Below are positions 16,996 to 40,466 of a stretch of 64,000 nucleotides of DNA, piece after piece. The DNA comes from Monosiga brevicollis MX1 (lineage: Eukaryota; Opisthokonta; Choanoflagellata; Craspedida; Salpingoecidae): NCBI RefSeq assembly GCF_000002865.3, contig NW_001865046.1, positions 3,113-67,112 on the forward strand. The letters run 5' to 3'. The position numbers were made by a program, and so were the translations under genes. The stretch's first letter is position 1. Each line of letters begins with the position of its first letter. The notes under the pieces are model-generated. The model was not told the DNA's origin and did no database searches. It was given only the letters and a program-made list of their open reading frames with translations.

Positions 16996-17310
16996 ATAGA
17001 TTTAGCCTGACTTTAGAGGATAGTAGCTTCCAATCAAATCGAGTAGTTCTAGCAATGGCTTGCTGCCTTTTCTTCTCTTCTCTTCTCTTCTCTTCTCTTC
17101 TCTTCTCTTCTCTTCTCTTCTCTTCTCTTCTCTTCTCTTCTCTTCTCTTCTCTTCTCTTTCTCTCTTTTTTGTTCTTCTTTCGAGCGCAAGCCCCTGCAG
17201 AATCATCACATCTTCAATGCATACTACAAGACTTCAATTGTCCTGGCCCAGCTGACGACTGGTTGCTACAAAATATAATAGTCAAAACCTTGAATATTGC
17301 TTTGATGTTC
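16996..17310. other. Short convergent intergenic region
   Basis: This region separates the convergent 3' ends of the ABC transporter and the first PPC-repeat gene. Apart from the pentanucleotide repeat it holds nothing recognisable; both 3' UTRs are expected here. Confidence 0.6.
17071..17160 (+). repeat. (TTCTC)n microsatellite
   Basis: About 18 nearly perfect TTCTC units lie between the two convergent genes. Confidence 0.95.
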
Positions 17311-20300
17311 TCAACACTGCACGATATTCATGTTCAGCGTGTAAGTGTTGGTGGCGTTGCGAAAACCGAAGATGTACAGCTGCGCAAGTTGGTCGGATGT
17401 GCTGATACCCACATACACCTCATTGTCAGTCGCGGAATTGACGGGTGTGTTAACGCCATTCAAAGTGACCGCCATGTCCAGGTCGCCAACGGCGTGTTCA
17501 AACTCAAGCAGAATATCAAGGCCACCGGATTGGCAGACGGGAATGATGAACACGTCCACGTCACCGTATTCGCAGATGGCTAGTCCTTGCAAGGCCACGT
17601 CGGTGGCAATCATTGTGGCCGTGGCCACAGAATCATTTGGCTCGAGTGCCGAGTCGGGACAACTTGAACTGCTTGTTGTCGCTGCCATTGTCGTTGTCCT
17701 ATCTGCTGAAGCATTGGTTGCCAAAGGAAGCGTGCGCTCCTGAGTGGTTGATGATTCTGGGGTCAGGCTGGGCGTCATGACGGTTGGGACACAGCCCGTC
17801 GTGATGATCGAAAGGTTGTAGGTGTTTGTATCGCCGAGAAACCCAATGACGGATATGGTCGCATCCGCATCCCGTCCAAGGGTGTTTGTTAACATGACTG
17901 ATTCATCGTCTGTTTCTGATAGACTTTGATCGAGAAGAGATGCAAGTCTGAGCGTCAGGTCCAGGTCACCAAAGGAGTGCAAAAAAGCTATGGTCACCTG
18001 GACTGTCCCGCCCGCACACACTGGAACAACATAGGTATCGTCGGGTTCATTCGAGCACACTGTGAGTCCAGTCATAGCCAGGTTGGGACTCAGCAGTGCT
18101 GGTGATGTAGGGCTGTTTGGTTCCAGCACGTCCGGGCTGCATGAGCATCCTGGGGCAGGAAAGGTGGCTGCACACGATGAACTGGTTGTGCTGCTTGGTG
18201 ATGTATTTGCGGTCGTTGTGCTTGCTGGCATGTTCGTTGATGCCATCCCTGTGGGCGACATGGAGGTGACGGACGTGGTGCTCGCGATGCTCGATGTGGT
18301 CGATGTGGTAGATGTGGTTGATGTGGTAGATGTGGTGGTCGTGGCAGATGTGGTCGATGTGGTGGTCGTGGCAGATGTGGTCGATGTGGTGGTCGTGGCA
18401 GATGTGGTCGATGTGGACGAGGTGGTCGATGTGGTAGAAGTGGTTGATGTGGTAGATGTGGTCGATGTGGTCGATGTGGTCGATGTGGTCGAGATGGTCG
18501 AGGTGGTCGAGGTGGCAGATGTGGTCGAGATGCTTGATGTGGTAGATGTGGTAGAAGTGGTAGATGTGCTTGATGTACTCGACGTGCTCGAGGTGCTTGA
18601 TGTGCTTGATGTACTCGAGGTGCTCGAAGTACTCGAGGTGCTCGAAGTACTCGAGGTGCTCGAAGTACTCGAAGTGCTCGAAGTACTCGATGTACTCGAG
18701 GTGCTTGATGTGCTTGATGTACTCGAGGTGCTTGATGTGCTTGATGTACTCGAGGTGCTCGAGGTGCTTGATGTGCTCGAGGTGCTCGAGGTGGTAGATG
18801 TGCTTGATGTACTCGACGTGCTCGAGGTGCTTGATGTGCTTGATGTACTCGAGGTGCTCGAAGTACTCGAGGTGCTCGAAGTACTCGAGGTGCTCGAAGT
18901 ACTCGAGGTGCTCGAAGTACTCGAAGTACTCGAGGTGCTTGATGTGCTTGATGTACTCGAGGTGCTCGAGGTGCTCGAGGTGCTCGAGGTGCTCGAGGTG
19001 CTCGAGGTGCTCGAGGTGCTCGAGGTGCTCGAGGTGCTCGAGGTGCTCGAGGTGCTCGAGGTACTTGACAGCGTGGTTGTCGTAGACGTGGGCTCAATGC
19101 CAGGCAAATCTTGCGCAAACAGACTGATAGAACAGGCGCCTTGGTTGAGCAGTGTCGATGCCGAGTTTTCAATACATTCCTCCACTTGTCGTGCCACCTG
19201 CTTGTCGACAGGCGCCGAGCATGAGCACATCGGACAGGTTGCCAGCACCATAAGCAGGGCAAAACGCTGACCTTGCTTTTGCGGACAGGGACTGATACTT
19301 TGTATTGGGAAAAGCCAGTTGCACTTGGACTGGCAAAAACGAGGTCAGTCGCGTTCCTCAACATCACCTGACAGGGCTGAGGCAACAGTGTTGGCATCAA
19401 GGCTGATTGATGGTGGTTGTAACATGACTGGCACAGGCAGTACGGACACAAACCTTTTTGACAGAGATGCACTTGTCCACCACGCTGCGAGACAAGTTGA
19501 AGATGGCCAGTTGATCGTTGGCAGTCAGCTGAGCTCCACGCCTTCCGTCACAGACCGCCGCAAAGCTGGCCTGGGTGGCATTTAAGTTGACGCAGCAGAG
19601 AGTCAGATCGGACACCCATCACCTCGCTTGATTGATGCAAGTGCAACGGGCAAGTCTTTTACCTGAGTTTTCATGCGAGTGTCATCGCGTTGAGTGCAGG
19701 GTTTGAACCAGACGCAAGCTTGAGATGCTTCATCACTAATGCAGTAGCGGGCGCGCAGACACGAGAGTCCTTGCGGGTCGCGGCACGGCACCAAGGTTGT
19801 GCACTTGCAGCGCCCAGCTAGAATCAAACACGAGCGAGTCAAGGAGAGGCTGTCGTGGTCAGGCTGAAGATGCGCCATTGTTTTGCTCAAAACTTGACGA
19901 GCACGACACGCGGTATACATAACAATAACAAAAACACTTGCGCCCACACGGGCGAGGGTGAGCATCGTACCAACAGCGGCAAAGGCAAAACCGCTGGCAA
20001 AGCCAGTCTCCACGGTGTAGCCGCCTTCGGCGCGTTTGATTTTGAAGCCTTGACCGTTGTTATCCTGTCGGAACGGTAGCATAAGCGGCGTGAGCTACAC
20101 ATACAAGAGCGCAGCCCATGACTCGATGGACGTTCGACAGGACACGGCTCCTGACCTCAAAGGCAATTAGGCGCTCGAGGGAAACGAAATTATCGCCAGT
20201 GTGAGCAGTTGGGCTCGGCGTGGTAGTCGAGGGCACATGAGTGGTTGGGAGACGGGTAGCGGTGGTGGTGGGTGAAGCTTGACCGAGAATGCAGAGGCAA

Positions 20301-20368
20301 GCGAGGAGGAGGCTCAAGACGCGCCGCGCACCAACGCACGGCAAAGCATGCACAGCAGCCCAAACCAT
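17311..20368 (-). CDS. Secreted S/T-stalk protein with two PPC-like domains (paralogue A)
   Basis: Likely an extracellular or cell-wall/theca-type protein (inference). The start at 20368 gives an N-terminal hydrophobic segment (ARRVLSLLLACLCILGQA). Exon 1 runs 20368-20156, exon 2 20064-19971 (YTVETGFASGFAF), exon 3 19817-19663 (RCKCTTLVPCRDPQGLSCLR), then an FAAVCDGRRGAQL exon, a PCQVMLRNATDLVF exon and the last large exon ending at 17311. The last exon holds VARQVEECIENSASTLL, then about 260 residues of STS and TTS repeats. Two domains follow with the bacterial pre-peptidase C-terminal (PPC) pattern: LEPNSP...YVVPVC...FGDLDLTLRL and LEPNDS...DVDVFIIPVC...VGDLDMAVTL. There is no protease domain and no C-terminal membrane helix. 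All modules are shared with the gene at 21222-23499, so the two are tandem paralogues. Confidence 0.75.
18293..19065 (-). repeat. 9-nt tandem repeat encoding a Ser-Thr-Ser stalk
   Basis: On the coding strand the units AGCACCTCG / AGTACTTCG and relatives repeat with a 9-nt period, each encoding Ser-Thr-Ser. Higher-order blocks of 30-60 nt recur. Toward the C-terminal side the units change to ACCACATC-type codons encoding TTS. The opposite strand stays open as a DVV/LEV repeat because the unit length is a multiple of three. Confidence 0.9.
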
Positions 20369-21221
20369 GCCGACGAACAGACTCAACACGCCAAGAACGA
20401 GATGGGCAAGTCACTCATCCAAGGCCAGGCACACTTTGTGGGACACAACGTTGATAGGATCAAGAAAGCGCCGATCGAACAGAGTCGCGGCCATTTGCTG
20501 TCGGAAATGGCGAGGCTTGGTCCATGACGCGATGCCACATGCGCACCCCGCGAGGCACGCACAAGCCACCGCAACGCATGACTCCTACCCCCACCCACCA
20601 CCACCACCACCCCTTTCCTTGCCCACACACACACACACACAGCAACTAGACCAGCCGTACCCTGCACCGACCCCGACCAGCTGACGCACACTTGCCCGCC
20701 AACCACAGGCATTTCCTTGCAACCGAGTCAACTGGCACCGCCCCTCCCTCGTATTGTCAGCATGTCATACTTTATAGCCGTTACAAAATGGGCTGTTCTG
20801 CCATCTGGGCGTTATGGCGAGGTGTCGGGTGTTCGGTGTTCGGGTCATGGATGCTGTTTACAATCCCGATGTTGTTCATGATCTTGACCTAGGTCAGCTT
20901 GCGCCCCTGGATGAGGCGGGGGGCTTGTATCATTCTCAAAACCGGGGACAGGTGTTTTGTCGCAGAAAACCGACACGGAGACACAAACACACACGTGTGC
21001 ACACCAACACAACACACTCGCGCCGAATTGCGACCATTAGATGGACGCGAGCAAGCGTCGAGCCCAGTGAAACTTGGTGGCGGGTTTTAGCCACGCAACC
21101 AATTCAACTATACAATGGACCTTTTGGAGCGTTTCATTCATTCGATTTCATGCGCGATGGCGGTCAGAATAATTAAAATGAGAATTGTGCGCTTGGACCC
21201 TCGCTTGGCTGGTCGCAAGCT
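20369..21221. other. Intergenic region upstream of paralogue A
   Basis: This stretch must hold the promoter of the gene at 17311-20368 and the 3' UTR of the gene at 21222-23499. A short (CA)n run lies at about 20623-20641. No further element was recognised. Confidence 0.5.
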
Positions 21222-23499
21222 TCAACAGCCCAAGAGACGAACATCGAGTTCATAGGTATTAACGGCATTAACGTAGCCATAGACCTTGATGAGGGCGGTT
21301 TGATTAGAGAAGCTGGGACCAATAAAAGACTCGTTGTCCGAGGCCGAGATGCCATTGGTTGTCAATCCGTTGAGGCGGACAGTCATGTCCAAGTCGCCGT
21401 CGGCATGCCGAAAGCGGACGTCCACTTGAAGCTTGCCATTGGCACAGACGTCCACGACATAGACGTCCTCATCGCCGCTGAAACAAATTTCCAAATCAAA
21501 CCATGAAGTGTTGCCGAGAAGTGTCGTGGCGGTTGCCTCCGAGTCATTTGGTTCAAATTGGCTGTCTGTGCAGACCTTTTGTTGGCAGTGCGAGACGGTG
21601 ATGCTGAGATTGTACGCATTGGTTTTGCCACCAAAGCTGCCAATCTCGAGGAGACCGGTCGTTGGAGTTTGCAATGGGCTCACGACAAGGGCAAACTCAT
21701 CATCCGTGGAGCTGGCCCGATCAATGACAAGATCGGCCACTTGCAAACGCATGTCAAGGTCACCCAAAGCATGAGAGAAGAAGAGTCCAATTGCAACGCG
21801 CCCTCGCGCGCATATGGGAAACTGGAAGGCGTCCACATCATGAGGACCACAGATAGAGAGCCCAGTGGCTGTCAGATTGGGACTGACTGAAAGTGGGGCG
21901 AGTCTGTCGTTTGGCTCAAACCTATCTTCAGCGCAAGTCGGAGCGGGCAGGGACGTGGACGTAGGCGCGGGTTCCGTGGGTCGAGACGTCAACCTCGGCG
22001 TCGGCGTTGGCGGAGACCTTGACGTAGACTTGGGCCGAGACCATGATGTGGACGTAGGCGTGGGTGTAGCTTCGGACTTGGGTGTTGGTGCAGTAGTCGA
22101 CTTGGAAACGGACTCTGCTGTAGATGTGGACGTGGACGTGGACGTGGACGTGGACGTGGACGTGGACGTGGACGTGGACGTCGATGTCGATGTCGATGTC
22201 GATGCCGATGTCAATGTCGATGTCGATGTTGATGTCGATGTCGATGTCGATGTCGATGTCGATGTCGATGTCGATGTCGATGTCGATGTCATCGAGGTCA
22301 GAGTTTTTGGAACGTCTGGGAGTGAGGAAGGATGCGCGCTGATGGTGCAGCCTTGACGCGTTCGTAGGCGGGCGCTAGCTTTGGCCAGGCACTTGAACAG
22401 GCGGCGAGCATCCTGTTCATCAAAAGACAAATGCATCAGGCGAATGGGGATAAAAACAAGGACTTGCACACATGCGTGGGGTGCGGAGAAGGTGAAGAAC
22501 CAGTTTGCCAGCTGCATAGTACTCCATGCACACGGGCAATGCGGTACCTTGGCAGCCAGAACGGCGACTTGGAGAGTGTAGATGCCCCCGACGTTGGCAT
22601 TGGCAAAGTGTAGATGGTCCTCACTGCCCAGCGCAACACGGCAGGGCTAAACAGGAGGGTTGGCGGCCCACAACAATACGCAGGTACGAATGGGTCAGCG
22701 CCAAAGGACCTTGTCAAAGCGTGGCACAGGACACCTGAGGTTTTGGTTGGCATCAATTATTTACCTTTGTGAGACGCCGACATTGATCAAGAACCGCACG
22801 CAGGCGCCCGTATATGTGGGAGCGTTCGATGGCCATGAGCGTAGACCTGTCCGCACCAACACAGGCGGCGTAGAATGTAAACTGCACGGCACGGGACGGG
22901 CAAGGTTAGCCGGCAGCGAAATCTGAGATGCTGGGCGTGTGATCCCGCCACATTTCTGCCAAGGAAGGTTGGCATAACAAAATCAAGAACAAAATCAAGG
23001 GTTGAGGGATGTACCAAGACCTACCGTGCTCGACATTGGGGTATCGTCGTCTTGCGTGCAAGGCTTGAAGTCGATACAGGGCTTGCTGTCATCGCCAAAG
23101 CAGTGGCGGGCACGCAGGCAGGTCAGGGTATCGGGATCATGACAGGGTACGAGGTTGGTGCACTTGCAGCGTCCCACTGTGACGCAGCCGAGGGCGTTAA
23201 AACGGTGAGACCTTGTGGCAAGCGTACGGCCAATGCGGCAGGGGCATTGAAGTACTTACGTGCTGGGGCGAGGGTCCAGCCGGTTGCAAACCCATACTCG
23301 AGCGCATAGCCGGCTCGGCTGGCGCGCAGCTTGACGCCCTGGCAGCGGTTCTGGTCGTTGCAGCAGCGGCTCTGGTCGTTGCAGCAGCGGCTCTGGTTGT
23401 GGGCAGGAGCCTTGTCGCGTCGCTGCTGCCGCGCCCAGTGTCGAGCCAAAGGGCGACCAGTAGCGCCAGCAACAGGCAGCGCACAACCGACAATGCCAT
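21222..23499 (-). CDS. Secreted S/T-stalk protein with two PPC-like domains (paralogue B)
   Basis: This has the same module order as its downstream neighbour. The start at 23499 gives a signal-like MALSVVRCLLLALLVALWL. The next exons read CQGVKLRASRAGYALEYG, then RCKCTNLVPCHDPDTLTCLR (about 23177-23030), then FYAACVGADRSTLMAIE (about 22880-22760), then a CRVALGSEDHLHFANA exon. The terminal exon begins near 22520 (LANWFFTFSAP) and contains DARRLFKCLAKASARL, a Ser-Thr dipeptide stalk and a Pro/Ser/Thr linker. Two PPC-like domains follow: FEPNDR...VDAFQFPIC...LGDLDMRLQV and FEPNDS...EDVYVVDVC...DGDLDMTVRL. It ends at 21222. Exon 1 runs into an AGAGCCGCTGCTGCAACGACC repeat where the splice site is ambiguous. 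Confidence 0.75.
22120..22289 (-). repeat. 6-nt tandem repeat encoding a (Ser-Thr)n stalk
   Basis: On the + strand GACGTG units give way abruptly to GATGTC units at about 22182, with a few variants (GATGCC, AATGTC, GATGTT). The coding strand reads CACGTC / GACATC and encodes alternating Ser and Thr. Confidence 0.9.
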
Positions 23500-24937
23500 C
23501 TCATCAACTCTCCTCCGTGCGTCGGGCAAAAGAAAAATTGCGGGACACGCTGCGGCGCGCGGTGCGCGCGCCGTTTGCTTGAGCCAGCCAGCTTTGGTAA
23601 CATGAGCAAACCCTTGCCTCGACCCTTCTCGACCCACCATGCCCGTGCACTTGCGCATGTCTGATGGTGGACTCTTGCCAGCCCAAACTCTACCGAGAAG
23701 TACAAGCCTAGGCCTCATTGCGGCGTTTGTAAAGAGTCTGGACAAGACCTTGACTCCTTTTGACCTACGACGCGACTGTCACGGACAAAGTATTGCTGGT
23801 TTTGAAAATCATTTCGTTAAGAACGTTGCAACCACGGTTGACCATGATCCAGATCTCCATGTGTGGTGGTGGGTGAGGCGGTGAGGAAGCAGCAGCTATC
23901 ACGGGGGGATGCGGCGCTTCTCTTGATGGAGCAGGGCCTCCGCTGCACGCAGGCACCACCGACTTGCTTGCAGCGCACGGGCAAGTCATCCGCGTCTTAT
24001 TGTTAACAACCCTCTTTAAGTTGTATTTGTGCCCACCAAAACTACCAAATGTACCACCGTTATGGAATGTAGGTTTGTTTTGTCACACATCGTCACACTT
24101 TTGTGATAAAATCTGACTTTTGACACACTTTTTTGATGTTGATTCTTCATGATGATTGCAAACACCGCTTGTTGTACGCTTTTCAGGTGTTGCCCCCTCA
24201 CTCCTTCTCTGTTTTCCTTACTCTCTCACGCCTTCTTGCTCTCTCTCTTCTTCTCTCTCTCTGTCTTTCTTTATTGACGTGTTCACACTCGAGTGACATG
24301 TTTTGCTGGGATTGTTACCGTGTTTGCCACACTTGTATGCAGATGTGACAAACATTACACCGGCATCAAACACAAACATTTGCGAACGACCTGATGCTTG
24401 ACACTTGCAGGTGCTCACCCTCACGCTCTTCCACCACCACCCCTGCTCACCTCAACCTCTGCTCACAACGCAAACTTCATGCCAAAACACCCTAACCCTT
24501 CATACCAACCTCACCCCCCTCTAAACACCCGACCCCCGCTCATCCACCCCTCTGCTTGCTTTGCTCCCCGTGGTGATACTTTTTTTTTTGGTCGTTTTTT
24601 ATTTGCGCGCGATAAGGTACGGCCCCCCTCGATCGTGTGCCCTTCGCCCCGCCTCCCTCTCCCGCCTTCCTCCGTGCGAGCCCAGCAAGCTCTGTTTTCG
24701 AGGTTGCCTTCGTCTTCGTCCTTGTCTCTGTGCCTCCCTTCTTTTCCCCTTCTCTTCGGCTTCTTCCTCGCCGATCGCTTTTTCTGCTTGATTCCGCGCG
24801 GGGGAGGAAGCAACATTGCCTTCTTCGATATCTGCCTCTTGCCGTCTTTGCCGCGCTCACTAGGGCCCCCGATCGCGTCTTGCCGCTGGTGGTTGGTGGG
24901 GTTCAACGTGGCAGGGAGTGTTGCCGACGTTTTCAAC
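23500..24937. other. Intergenic region, no gene recognised
   Basis: It separates two divergently transcribed genes. It contains short open frames on both strands, a pyrimidine-rich part (about 24200-24300 and 24640-24800) and an A/T-rich patch near 24050-24150. A + frame at 23639-23884 has no recognisable domain. The last 250 nt are probably the 5' UTR/promoter of the esterase gene. Confidence 0.5.
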
Positions 24938-26650
24938 ATGCTGACCAAGACCTTTGTTGCCCTGGCCTGCCTGGCTGCCACTGCCGTATGTTGCTGCTCC
25001 CCCGACGCGGCTCCGAAATTTGATTCGCGCCGCCATGGACACGAGGTCACCTCGGCCCTGCCCTAAACTCACAACGCCACCCTACGCTCACCATGCTCAT
25101 GCTGTGCAATCGCAGACGGCCTCCTGGCCCGATATTCAAGTGAGCTCGCAGAATGTGACCGTCTCGGGTCTCAGTGCCGGCGCTTTCTTTGCCGTGCAGT
25201 ACCATGTGGCCTTTTCTGCCTCCATCACCGGCGCCGGCATTGTGGCCGGCGGCCCCTACTACTGCGCCGAGGACGAGATGGCCGAGGCCCTCACAAGTAC
25301 GTTTCCCGAAATCCCAACCGCTCCCGTCTAAAACGCCGACTAGTCCTTGCGTCGCTCACCTTTGTACCTCAATGTGCGCCACAGTGTGCATGAACACTCC
25401 CGAGATGATCAACCTGGAACGCCTCTACTCGGCCACCGAGGGTTTTGCGGCCAGCAAGTCGATTGATGCCACCTCCAACATGGCCTCGGACAACGTCTAC
25501 CTTTACTCAGGCACCAACGACCACGTCGTCAACTCGGCTGCCATGCACAAGCTGCAAACCTGTGCGTGCTCCGCGCATGCTCCCATCTTGTCGGCGCTGT
25601 GTTGCCCGGTGCTTATCGCCTTGCCGTGCCATCGATACGCTCTCTAGACTACGAGCACTACGTCACCAATGGTAACATTACTACCGAGTACACTGTCGAC
25701 TCGGCCCACGGCATGCCCACCCTTGACTACGGCAACCCTTGCAGCCTTCAGGGCGAGCCCTACATTCAGAAGTGCGAGTACGATGGTGCTGGCCACATCC
25801 TCCAGGTGCGGCCTGTCAAGGGATCTCGAGCTTGATCTGCCACCTTTTTGTCTGGATTGTTTCACAAAGCACTTACAACCCCCTTGCTTCTGACCACCCC
25901 TGTTCCCTCTGCGTCAGACCCTGTACGGCACTCTGAACCCCCGTGGCACCGCCTCGGACAGCAACATCATCTCCTTTGATCAGACGGCCTTTGGCAGCGC
26001 TGATGCCCTCCTTGGCCCGACTGGGTATGTTCTTCGCCTCCATGACATGCCTTGGCACCTGCCTGGAAAGGCCAGCTCACAAAGGAAAACCCCCCAAATC
26101 ATGCATGTGTTGGCGCGCAGTTACATGTATGTGCCCACGGCCTGCCGCAATGCTTCTGCTTGCCGCCTCCACATTGTCTTCCACGGCTGCCAGCAGCAGA
26201 TTGAGCGCATCCATGTACGTTGACCCCTTTGATCAACAACGGCTGGAGAGTGAGGCGCGCGCCGACAACATCACTTGATTGCCACCACCCAAACTCACCC
26301 TGACATGTTTGATCGCGTGACGCGCAGGAGGACTACATCAAGCACACCGGCTACAATGAGTGGGCTGAGTCCAACAACCTCGTCATTCTGTACCCTCAGT
26401 GCAAGGCCACCGAGCTCGTACGTCATGGCTTGGCAACCGCTGGCTGCAAGTGTGACTCACGGGCTTTGCTGTGTTTTGTGTCGATGGGGCTCACGCTTGC
26501 GCCTCGTGTGTGCCCGCGTTACAGGTTGGCAACCCCAACGCCTGCTTCGACTGGTGGGGCTACACCAACAAGCAGTACGCCACCCAGAATGGCTCCCAGA
26601 TGAAGGTTATCCGCGCCATGCAGGACAAGCTCACTGGTGCCTCCAAGTAA
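24938..26650 (+). CDS. Secreted PHB-depolymerase-type serine esterase
   Basis: An alpha/beta hydrolase of the esterase/PHB depolymerase family, expected to cleave short-chain polyesters or similar esters outside the cell. Eight exons: 24938-24985 (signal peptide MLTKTFVALACLAATA), 25116-25296, 25385-25561, 25648-25805, 25918-26024, 26121-26214, 26327-26417 and 26525-26650 (TAA). The nucleophile elbow is SGLSAGAFFA in exon 2, the acid is in LYSGTNDHVV in exon 3 and the histidine is in DSAHGMPT in exon 4. This order and spacing match the fungal single-domain PHB depolymerase pattern. The C-terminal half carries RLHIVFHGCQQQ and ACFDWWGYTNKQYATQNG, a conserved block of PHB depolymerase-like proteins. 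There is no separate substrate-binding domain. All junctions join in frame. Confidence 0.88.
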
Positions 26651-26943: not shown

Positions 26944-27717
26944 NNNNNNNNNNNNNNNNNNNNNNNNNNNNNNNNNNNNNNNNNNNNNNNNNNNNNNNNN
27001 NNNNNNNNNNNNNNNNNNNNNNNNNNNNNNNNNNNNNNNNNNNNNNNNNNNNNNNNNNNNNNNNNNNNNNNNNNNNNNNNNNNNNNNNNNNNNNNNNNNN
27101 NNNNNNNNNNNNNNNNNNNNNNNNNNNNNNNNNNNNNNNNNNNNNNNNNNNNNNNNNNNNNNNNNNNNNNNNNNNNNNNNNNNNNNNNNNNNNNNNNNNN
27201 NNNNNNNNNNNNNNNNNNNNNNNNNNNNNNNNNNNNNNNNNNNNNNNNNNNNNNNNNNNNNNNNNNNNNNNNNNNNNNNNNNNNNNNNNNNNNNNNNNNN
27301 NNNNNNNNNNNNNNNNNNNNNNNNNNNNNNNNNNNNNNNNNNNNNNNNNNNNNNNNNNNNNNNNNNNNNNNNNNNNNNNNNNNNNNNNNNNNNNNNNNNN
27401 NNNNNNNNNNNNNNNNNNNNNNNNNNNNNNNNNNNNNNNNNNNNNNNNNNNNNNNNNNNNNNNNNNNNNNNNNNNNNNNNNNNNNNNNNNNNNNNNNNNN
27501 NNNNNNNNNNNNNNNNNNNNNNNNNNNNNNNNNNNNNNNNNNNNNNNNNNNNNNNNNNNNNNNNNNNNNNNNNNNNNNNNNNNNNNNNNNNNNNNNNNNN
27601 NNNNNNNNNNNNNNNNNNNNNNNNNNNNNNNNNNNNNNNNNNNNNNNNNNNNNNNNNNNNNNNNNNNNNNNNNNNNNNNNNNNNNNNNNNNNNNNNNNNN
27701 NNNNNNNNNNNNNNNNN
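26944..27717. other. Assembly gap (774 N)
   Basis: An unbroken run of N. It hides the 5' exons and promoter of the cullin gene and the rest of the intergenic region. Open frames through it are meaningless. Confidence 1.
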
Positions 27718-40213: not shown

Positions 40214-40395
40214 ATCGCTTCTAGCCTTTTGGCTATGATCTTTAGTAGTAAACGTTTATTGTTCTTTGACAAGAACAAGCCCATCTCCGGATGGGTAACT
40301 TGTCAAGTCAATATTTGGCAGCGGTGAGGCTTCTAGCTTGCTAGAACCTCACAAGCATGGCCTCGGAGCTGCACTATTTCCGAGCGCTGTGCACG
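40214..40395 (+). ncRNA. U2 spliceosomal snRNA
   Basis: U2 snRNA pairs with the intron branch site in the spliceosome. The 5' end ATCGCTTCTAGCC-TTTT-GGCTATGATC matches U2 stem I and the U6-pairing region. The branch-pairing core GTAGTA is present at about 40245-40250, though its flanks differ from the animal sequence. A CCCATC-TCCG-GATGGG hairpin corresponds to stem II. AATATTTGG at about 40312 fits the Sm site. Stem III is a long perfect hairpin GTGAGG-C-TTCTAGC-TT-GCTAGAA-CCTCAC that keeps the AGCTTGCT loop. Stem IV (GCATGGCCTCGGAGCTGCAC ... GTGCAC) aligns with the 3' domain. The length of about 182 nt is near the usual 188. There is no downstream T-run, so Pol II transcription is likely. 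Both ends are set by homology. Confidence 0.85.
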
Positions 40396-40466
40396 TATTC
40401 TCCTTCTTATGAACATTAAATGAAGAACTTGACAGAATAATGCGTCTACTATGCTCTGATCAAATC

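Follow-up and report, generated by a model that had tools for sequence, protein, structure and literature searches.

What kind of protein combines a cysteine-rich N-terminal module, a Ser/Thr stalk and two C-terminal PPC-like domains is a question raised by two adjacent minus-strand genes, here termed A and B, in a stretch of 64,000 nucleotides of the Monosiga brevicollis MX1 genome (contig NW_001865046.1, positions 3,113 to 67,112; hereafter the window). An earlier note on this DNA had described them as a tandem pair of a possibly undescribed family of surface proteins. The pair does share its modules, but the N-terminal module is wider than the pair, with further copies that mostly have other partner domains, one of which carries the module at its C-terminus. 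The reading that we tentatively prefer, and regard as quite plausible, is that these genes encode secreted mucin-stalked proteins in which a 12-Cys module would form the constant head, with an interchangeable dock or tether at the opposite end. The features of the two genes, in window coordinates and lengths in amino acids (aa) or base pairs (bp), are as follows; ORF denotes an open reading frame.

17311–20368, minus: gene B; single open frame of 857 aa in six exons separated by five GT-AG introns
20276–20368, minus: putative signal peptide MVWAAVHALPCVGARRVLSLLLACLCILGQA opening exon 1 of gene B (gene model and hydropathy)
20156–20368, minus: gene B exon 1, comprising signal, Thr-rich linker and ...SLERLIAFE; GT donor, phase 0
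19971–20064, minus: gene B exon 2 (GFASG); the N-terminal module starts at 20064; conserved phase-1 intron before G-x-C
19663–19817, minus: gene B exon 3, encoding GRCKCTTLVPC...KPC with seven cysteines (gene model and alignment)
19454–19570, minus: gene B exon 4 (FAAVC; gene model and alignment)
19272–19376, minus: gene B exon 5 (PCQV...DLVFAS; gene model and alignment)
17311–19200, minus: gene B exon 6, with the end of the N-terminal module (to 19099), stalk, two PPC-like domains and stop
18181–19098, minus: gene B stalk, 306 aa, Ser+Thr 92%, encoded by 9-bp and 18/27-bp repeats
17791–18141, minus: gene B PPC-like domain 1 (alignment and profile)
17314–17661, minus: gene B PPC-like domain 2 (alignment, profile and predicted structure, pLDDT 78)
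21222–23499, minus: gene A; modules as in gene B, 5' end unproven or broken
23428–23499, minus: ORF of a putative gene A signal peptide, ATG at 23499, frame different from that of the body
23260–23350, minus: gene A counterpart of exon 2, NRCQGVKLRASRAGYALEYGFATG; the upstream limit is a guess
23025–23176, minus: gene A seven-cysteine exon (GRCKCTNLVPC...KPC; gene model and alignment)
22765–22881, minus: gene A exon (FYAACV; gene model and alignment)
22548–22646, minus: gene A exon PCRVALGSEDHLHFANA (gene model and alignment)
21222–22412, minus: gene A last exon, with DARRLFKC segment, stalk, two PPC-like domains and stop
21936–22313, minus: gene A stalk in the last exon, 126 aa, Ser+Thr 68%
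21585–21935, minus: gene A PPC-like domain 1 (alignment; low-confidence tandem model)
21225–21572, minus: gene A PPC-like domain 2, the best Pfam PPC match (E 0.018, under the cut-off)

The gene models of both genes contain the modules in the order and at the coordinates given previously. Gene B reads without interruption from the ATG at 20368 to a stop ending at 17311 in the spliced model, and its putative signal peptide, whose best hydrophobic 10-mer has a mean hydropathy of 2.99, is joined to the rest. The signal-like start proposed for both genes was thus recovered in gene B, whereas in gene A the ORF is unjoined to the body; the statement that the pair share every module is not supported on this point, because the signal peptide of gene A is out of frame with the body.

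The N-terminal module is a domain of about 185 aa with 12 cysteines that are invariant in all eight close copies aligned. An exon-by-exon search of the organism's own assembly (39.47 Mb, 57 contigs, among which C49 carries genes A and B) found at least ten copies, namely A, B, C45a, C45b, C32a, C32b, C17, C4, C30 and C47, a number that is a lower bound as the search scored the best candidates only. Six of the ten form three tandem pairs, and the copies are spread over seven contigs. The C47 copy was recovered not by the gene B query but by a second query, C45a; C32b, missed with both queries, was spotted by eye next to C32a, and its own letters, used as a genome query, matched C32b alone. Leave-one-out profiles of the eight close copies scored 100–251 bits (E 3e-79 to 6e-33, one-sequence database), and each of these copies has the twelve cysteines in register and the layout of exons 2–6. 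The C47 module reached 76 bits, as compared to a maximum of 13.5 among 2000 shuffles. For C32b the score of 14.2 bits was attained by none of 1000 full shuffles and by one of 1000 shuffles with fixed cysteines; its exon 2 is not recognisable and its alignment row is partial, so that its membership leans also on exon layout and neighbourhood. Sharing of the module by chance or as an artefact of the first reading can be discarded on account of the seven contigs, the common splice positions and the failure of any shuffle to equal C47.

Ten cysteines are present in the C47 module and likewise in that of C32b, the second and seventh being absent from both. Their joint loss suggests that these two may pair as a disulfide, with the caveat that C47 and C32b are the most divergent module sequences. 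C47 is also gapped at the ninth cysteine column; one of its cysteines sits in a neighbouring unaligned column, and the gap is taken as local misalignment.

As far as can be read from genomic DNA, the N-terminal exons are joined to the stalk. In nine out of nine copies with an N-terminal module, the last module exon runs into the Ser/Thr stalk in one open frame (C30 meets the contig end shortly into its stalk), which makes this join independent of RNA data. Intron 1 is in phase 0 in seven copies, i.e., gene B and six paralogs, following LE in five of the paralogs and DD in the sixth, C45b; intron 2 is in phase 1, before G-x-C, in all nine copies read on both sides. Intron-poor copies cross several of the joins directly (4–5 in C45a, 5–6 in C45b and C32b, 3–6 in C47), and for joins 1–2 and 2–3 the conserved splice positions are the sole support.

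The earlier impression that the module resembles nothing known was borne out by searches of Pfam, NCBIfam and PDB sequences. The Pfam scan, which covered the eight close modules and left C47 and C32b aside, yielded no convincing match, the best being BT_3535-like (E 0.0044, two of eight members). The same eight matched nothing in NCBIfam at E ≤1, and the sole match of the module profile to PDB sequences at E ≤10 was PP2C-like (E 1.3). This likeness, which concerns the FAAVCDGRGG stretch and was listed by Pfam for just one of the eight members, was rejected as noise. Single-protein scans for close relatives gave 32 pattern matches in viral contigs and 134 in prokaryote genome contigs, none of which was confirmed, and no title or abstract opening listed in searches of an open-access paper collection describes the family. 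As far as Pfam, NCBIfam and PDB sequences go, the 12-Cys module thus appears to be a new domain in a protein of a known kind, represented by Hoglet and Rosetteless.

The domain at the other end of the stalk varies. The stalks themselves are 88–410 aa long with 68–99% Ser+Thr (seven copies measured). Genes A and B end in two PPC-like domains each, while C45a, C45b, C17 and C4 have a Cys-rich domain with weak likeness to the C-terminus of glycosyltransferase 18 (GT18), for which human MGAT5 is the reference. The same GT18-C-like domain heads two more stalked genes of secreted type, at 1308.8 kilobases (kb) on C51 and at 546–549 kb on C32, in which no module was found. A profile of these six rows matched five MGAT5 sequences and nothing else in the PDB at E ≤10, near the MGAT5 C-termini and weakly (E 0.34–0.43). 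Pfam listed GT18 for three of the six rows, with a best E of 0.0017 and scores under the cut-off where bits are given. A profile of the four tails alone retrieved no MGAT5 from the PDB at E ≤1, just an unrelated deaminase (E 0.74). The four tails share with the MGAT5 C-terminus the Cys-rich pattern SC...C...C...RxCxC; they differ in that the E-values are weak and that no enzyme domain was seen attached to them. The domain tested from the C51 gene gave no Pfam match, and the gene at 546–549 kb on C32, which terminates in Hint, contains an HpiC1-like domain over the Pfam cut-off.

Hint domains also terminate two module copies. C32a ends in Hint (PF01079, E 2.7e-15), and C32b has an HpiC1-like domain (E 2.6e-5, under the cut-off), which we take to be possibly carbohydrate-binding, followed by Hint. 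The two genes are neighbours (C32:460500–470400); their Hint domains are very alike by eye and their N-terminal regions are not, which suggests that the Hint end was recently copied or converted. No Hint was detected in genes A and B or elsewhere in the window; there were five Hint matches in the genome, none of them on C49. Further short ORFs with Hint domains of related type lie at 469.6 kb on C33 and 224.6 kb on C52. The tail of C30 is cut off by the contig end. C47 opens with a signal-like start, continues with two short Cys-rich repeats borne on stalks rich in Thr, and has the module as its C-terminal end; the name "VWC-like", considered for these repeats, was dropped, as they have no Pfam match at E ≤0.5.

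Each of the four PPC-like domains of genes A and B starts with EPN and has four invariant cysteines. The Pfam model (PF04151) lists one of the four at E ≤1, with a best score of 16.4 bits (E 0.018) as compared to a curated cut-off of 25.9 bits; because of this shortfall we call the domains PPC-like rather than members of PF04151. Used alone, the PPC region of gene B drew no PDB match at E ≤1, and all seven matches of the four-domain profile at this threshold were collagen-binding domains (CBDs) of collagenases, the best being 5iku (E 1.7e-5), which establishes homology to solved PPC/CBD domains. The predicted model of PPC-like domain 2 of gene B has the beta-sandwich fold of these domains and matches collagenase CBDs and, equally, GOLD domains; an identity as TMED/GOLD, tied with PPC in Z-score, was rejected as the profile lists PPC-type domains only. 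The PPC-like nature previously assigned to these domains is thus upheld by profile and predicted fold. A model of the tandem (pLDDT 67.9, pTM 0.47) was not used for domain orientation. Compared with the collagenase PPC domains (ColG s3a/s3b, ColH s3, 5sv5), the domains of A and B agree in the profile match, the beta-sandwich, the EPN start and, as in ColG, the tandem arrangement; they differ in lacking a catalytic module, in the four invariant cysteines per domain, in sequence (13–21% identity in structure alignments) and in the score under the Pfam cut-off. According to PMC6168687, bacterial collagenase PPC domains bind collagen, those of M9A collagenases have four cysteines common among themselves, and Ca2+ is required by the ColG domains and not by the Grimontia one. 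Since bacterial PPC domains themselves differ in this respect, those of A and B may or may not use Ca2+.

The assertion that the pair contains no peptidase stands, as the N- and C-terminal regions of both genes drew no peptidase catalytic family from Pfam at E ≤10. Elsewhere in the genome there are peptidase-like ORFs that carry PPC domains. PPC or PPC-like domains were found in seven genes, counted from ORFs, with gene models for A and B only: A, B, one each at 650 kb on C32, 420 kb on C46 (its tail left out of the Pfam scan) and 866 kb on C45, and two on C42. The C45 ORF and the two C42 ORFs (559 kb and 562 kb) are metzincin-like, with the zinc-site motif or part of it recognised by eye; the metzincin matches of the C45 ORF, the sole metzincin-like ORF run against Pfam, are under the cut-off. 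The two C42 PPC domains exceed the Pfam PPC cut-off, and the first PPC domain of the C45 ORF does not. That first domain is free of cysteines, and the same ORF has two further PPC domains that contain them, on stalks rich in Thr; it may represent an intermediate between a peptidase and a stalked protein. The findings also suggest that a PPC-type domain moved between peptidases and stalked non-enzymes within one genome.

Genes A and B themselves are probably duplicates of an ancestral gene in which two PPC domains were already in place, because their second PPC-like domains group in the tree (support 80/81, modest), as do their modules (92/91, likewise modest). It is possible, though on the whole unlikely, that gene A is a decaying product of this duplication and gene B the sole working gene. 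The signal and body frames of gene A are unjoined, neither the intron-1 donor nor the preceding D/E...LE segment, both of which seven other copies have, was detected, and the frame break (23340–23499) coincides with a 21-bp tandem repeat of 2.7 copies at 23342–23397; one paralog, C4, carries an in-frame stop, a TAG within exon 2 (positions 1919–1954 of its locus, the rest being open). Decay is harder to reconcile with the body of gene A (23350–21222), which runs open for 549 aa past the break through four GT-AG introns and retains the 12 conserved cysteines of the module and the eight of the PPC-like domains, and unusual splicing, or an error in the assembly, would account for the break just as well.

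The architecture of gene B, and that of gene A provided its 5' end is unbroken, points to a secreted modular glycoprotein that would begin with a 12-Cys module rich in disulfides and finish with two PPC-like domains of beta-sandwich fold. The signal-like start of gene B, the two folded ends and the Ser/Thr stalk agree with the extracellular type of protein proposed before. No 19-mer in the last domain exceeds a mean hydropathy of 1.6 (best values 0.64 in A and 1.52 in B), and these features, together with the want of a clear membrane span in that domain, are the grounds for reading the proteins as secreted and mucin-stalked. The stalk would be stiff and O-glycosylated, holding the head at a distance. 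The module is assigned the role of head, and the other end that of dock, because the module is constant, the partner varies and one partner is Hint. The docking end might then be a PPC-like pair that binds matrix or polymer, a GT18-C-like domain that is perhaps glycan-related, or Hint. In known proteins Hint leaves a tether on the fragment formerly attached to it; here it could cleave itself and possibly leave head and stalk tethered to the membrane by a lipid adduct, as for Hedgehog. Likely places of action would be the cell coat, the attachment matrix or a capture surface; the role in adhesion, matrix or prey capture suggested earlier is likewise an inference. If the head is indeed a new extracellular domain, coupled within one genome to matrix-binding, glycan-type and Hint tails, the family would provide a set of proteins for studying how cell coats are put together and varied among the unicellular relatives of animals. 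A and B may be compared with Rosetteless from Salpingoeca rosetta, which PMC4381721 describes as a secreted protein of the rosette core with a signal peptide and mucin-like Ser/Thr runs. Genes A and B resemble it in their secreted type, signal-like start, folded domains and long Ser/Thr stalk; the folded domains of Rosetteless are C-type lectin-like, a type not listed for the eight N-terminal modules or the PPC regions.

Two considerations weigh against the module as head: C47 carries it at the opposite end of the chain, and the constant part could equally be the anchor. A reversed polarity appears unlikely to us. In it the 12-Cys module would anchor the protein to the coat or theca, and the variable domains at the C-terminus (PPC pair, GT18-C-like) would face outward and recognise, for instance, prey bacteria or substrate. 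A constant module with a variable partner would suit an anchor with changing recognition parts, and PPC domains are binding modules in other proteins (PMC6168687); the C-terminal partner of C32a and C32b, however, is Hint, a part that leaves a tether rather than one that recognises.

The preferred reading of a constant head on an exchangeable dock has a bolder version, which we consider doubtful at present, in which the 12-Cys module would be a choanoflagellate extracellular recognition or signal head on combinatorial tethers (PPC pair, GT18-C-like or Hedgehog-type Hint). If this were true, the sister group of animals would have an independent non-Hedgehog ligand that relies on release and tethering by Hint, and the family would bear on whether Hint-tethered secreted heads existed outside Hedgehog in the unicellular relatives of animals. 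A close comparison is Hoglet of Monosiga ovata, whose N-terminal region is described as cellulose-binding-like in PMC2362128. Hoglet is matched by the long Thr-rich stretch and by the C-terminal Hint of two module paralogs, one with an HpiC1-like domain in addition; genes A and B differ from Hoglet, as known from its description, in that they lack Hint and end in a PPC-like domain.

Least of all do we favour a soluble secreted accessory of digestion, in which a module rich in Cys, and perhaps inhibitor-like, would be delivered by the PPC-like domains to the substrate of the metzincin-like peptidases: the Cys-containing PPC-like domains of the C45 metzincin-like ORF do resemble those of A and B, and the two metzincin-like C42 ORFs carry PPC domains over the cut-off, but seven of the ten module copies have no attached PPC domain, one more is truncated by a contig end, and Pfam listed no inhibitor family for the eight modules scanned, which makes this improbable.

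Other features are as follows. A CTTCT microsatellite of 20.6 copies (17067–17167) lies immediately downstream of gene B. On the other side of the pair a divergently oriented neighbour gene (about 24900–26650, plus strand) looks like a secreted esterase, which we assume to be of the PHB-depolymerase type. A run of N at 26944–27717, i.e., an assembly gap or masked stretch, accounts for the low G+C content at 26–28 kb. A search of the assembly for cadherins gave 150 repeat matches among 288 candidates, as would suit a choanoflagellate. A gene for the U2 spliceosomal RNA was located at 40214–40399 on the plus strand of the window (102 bits).

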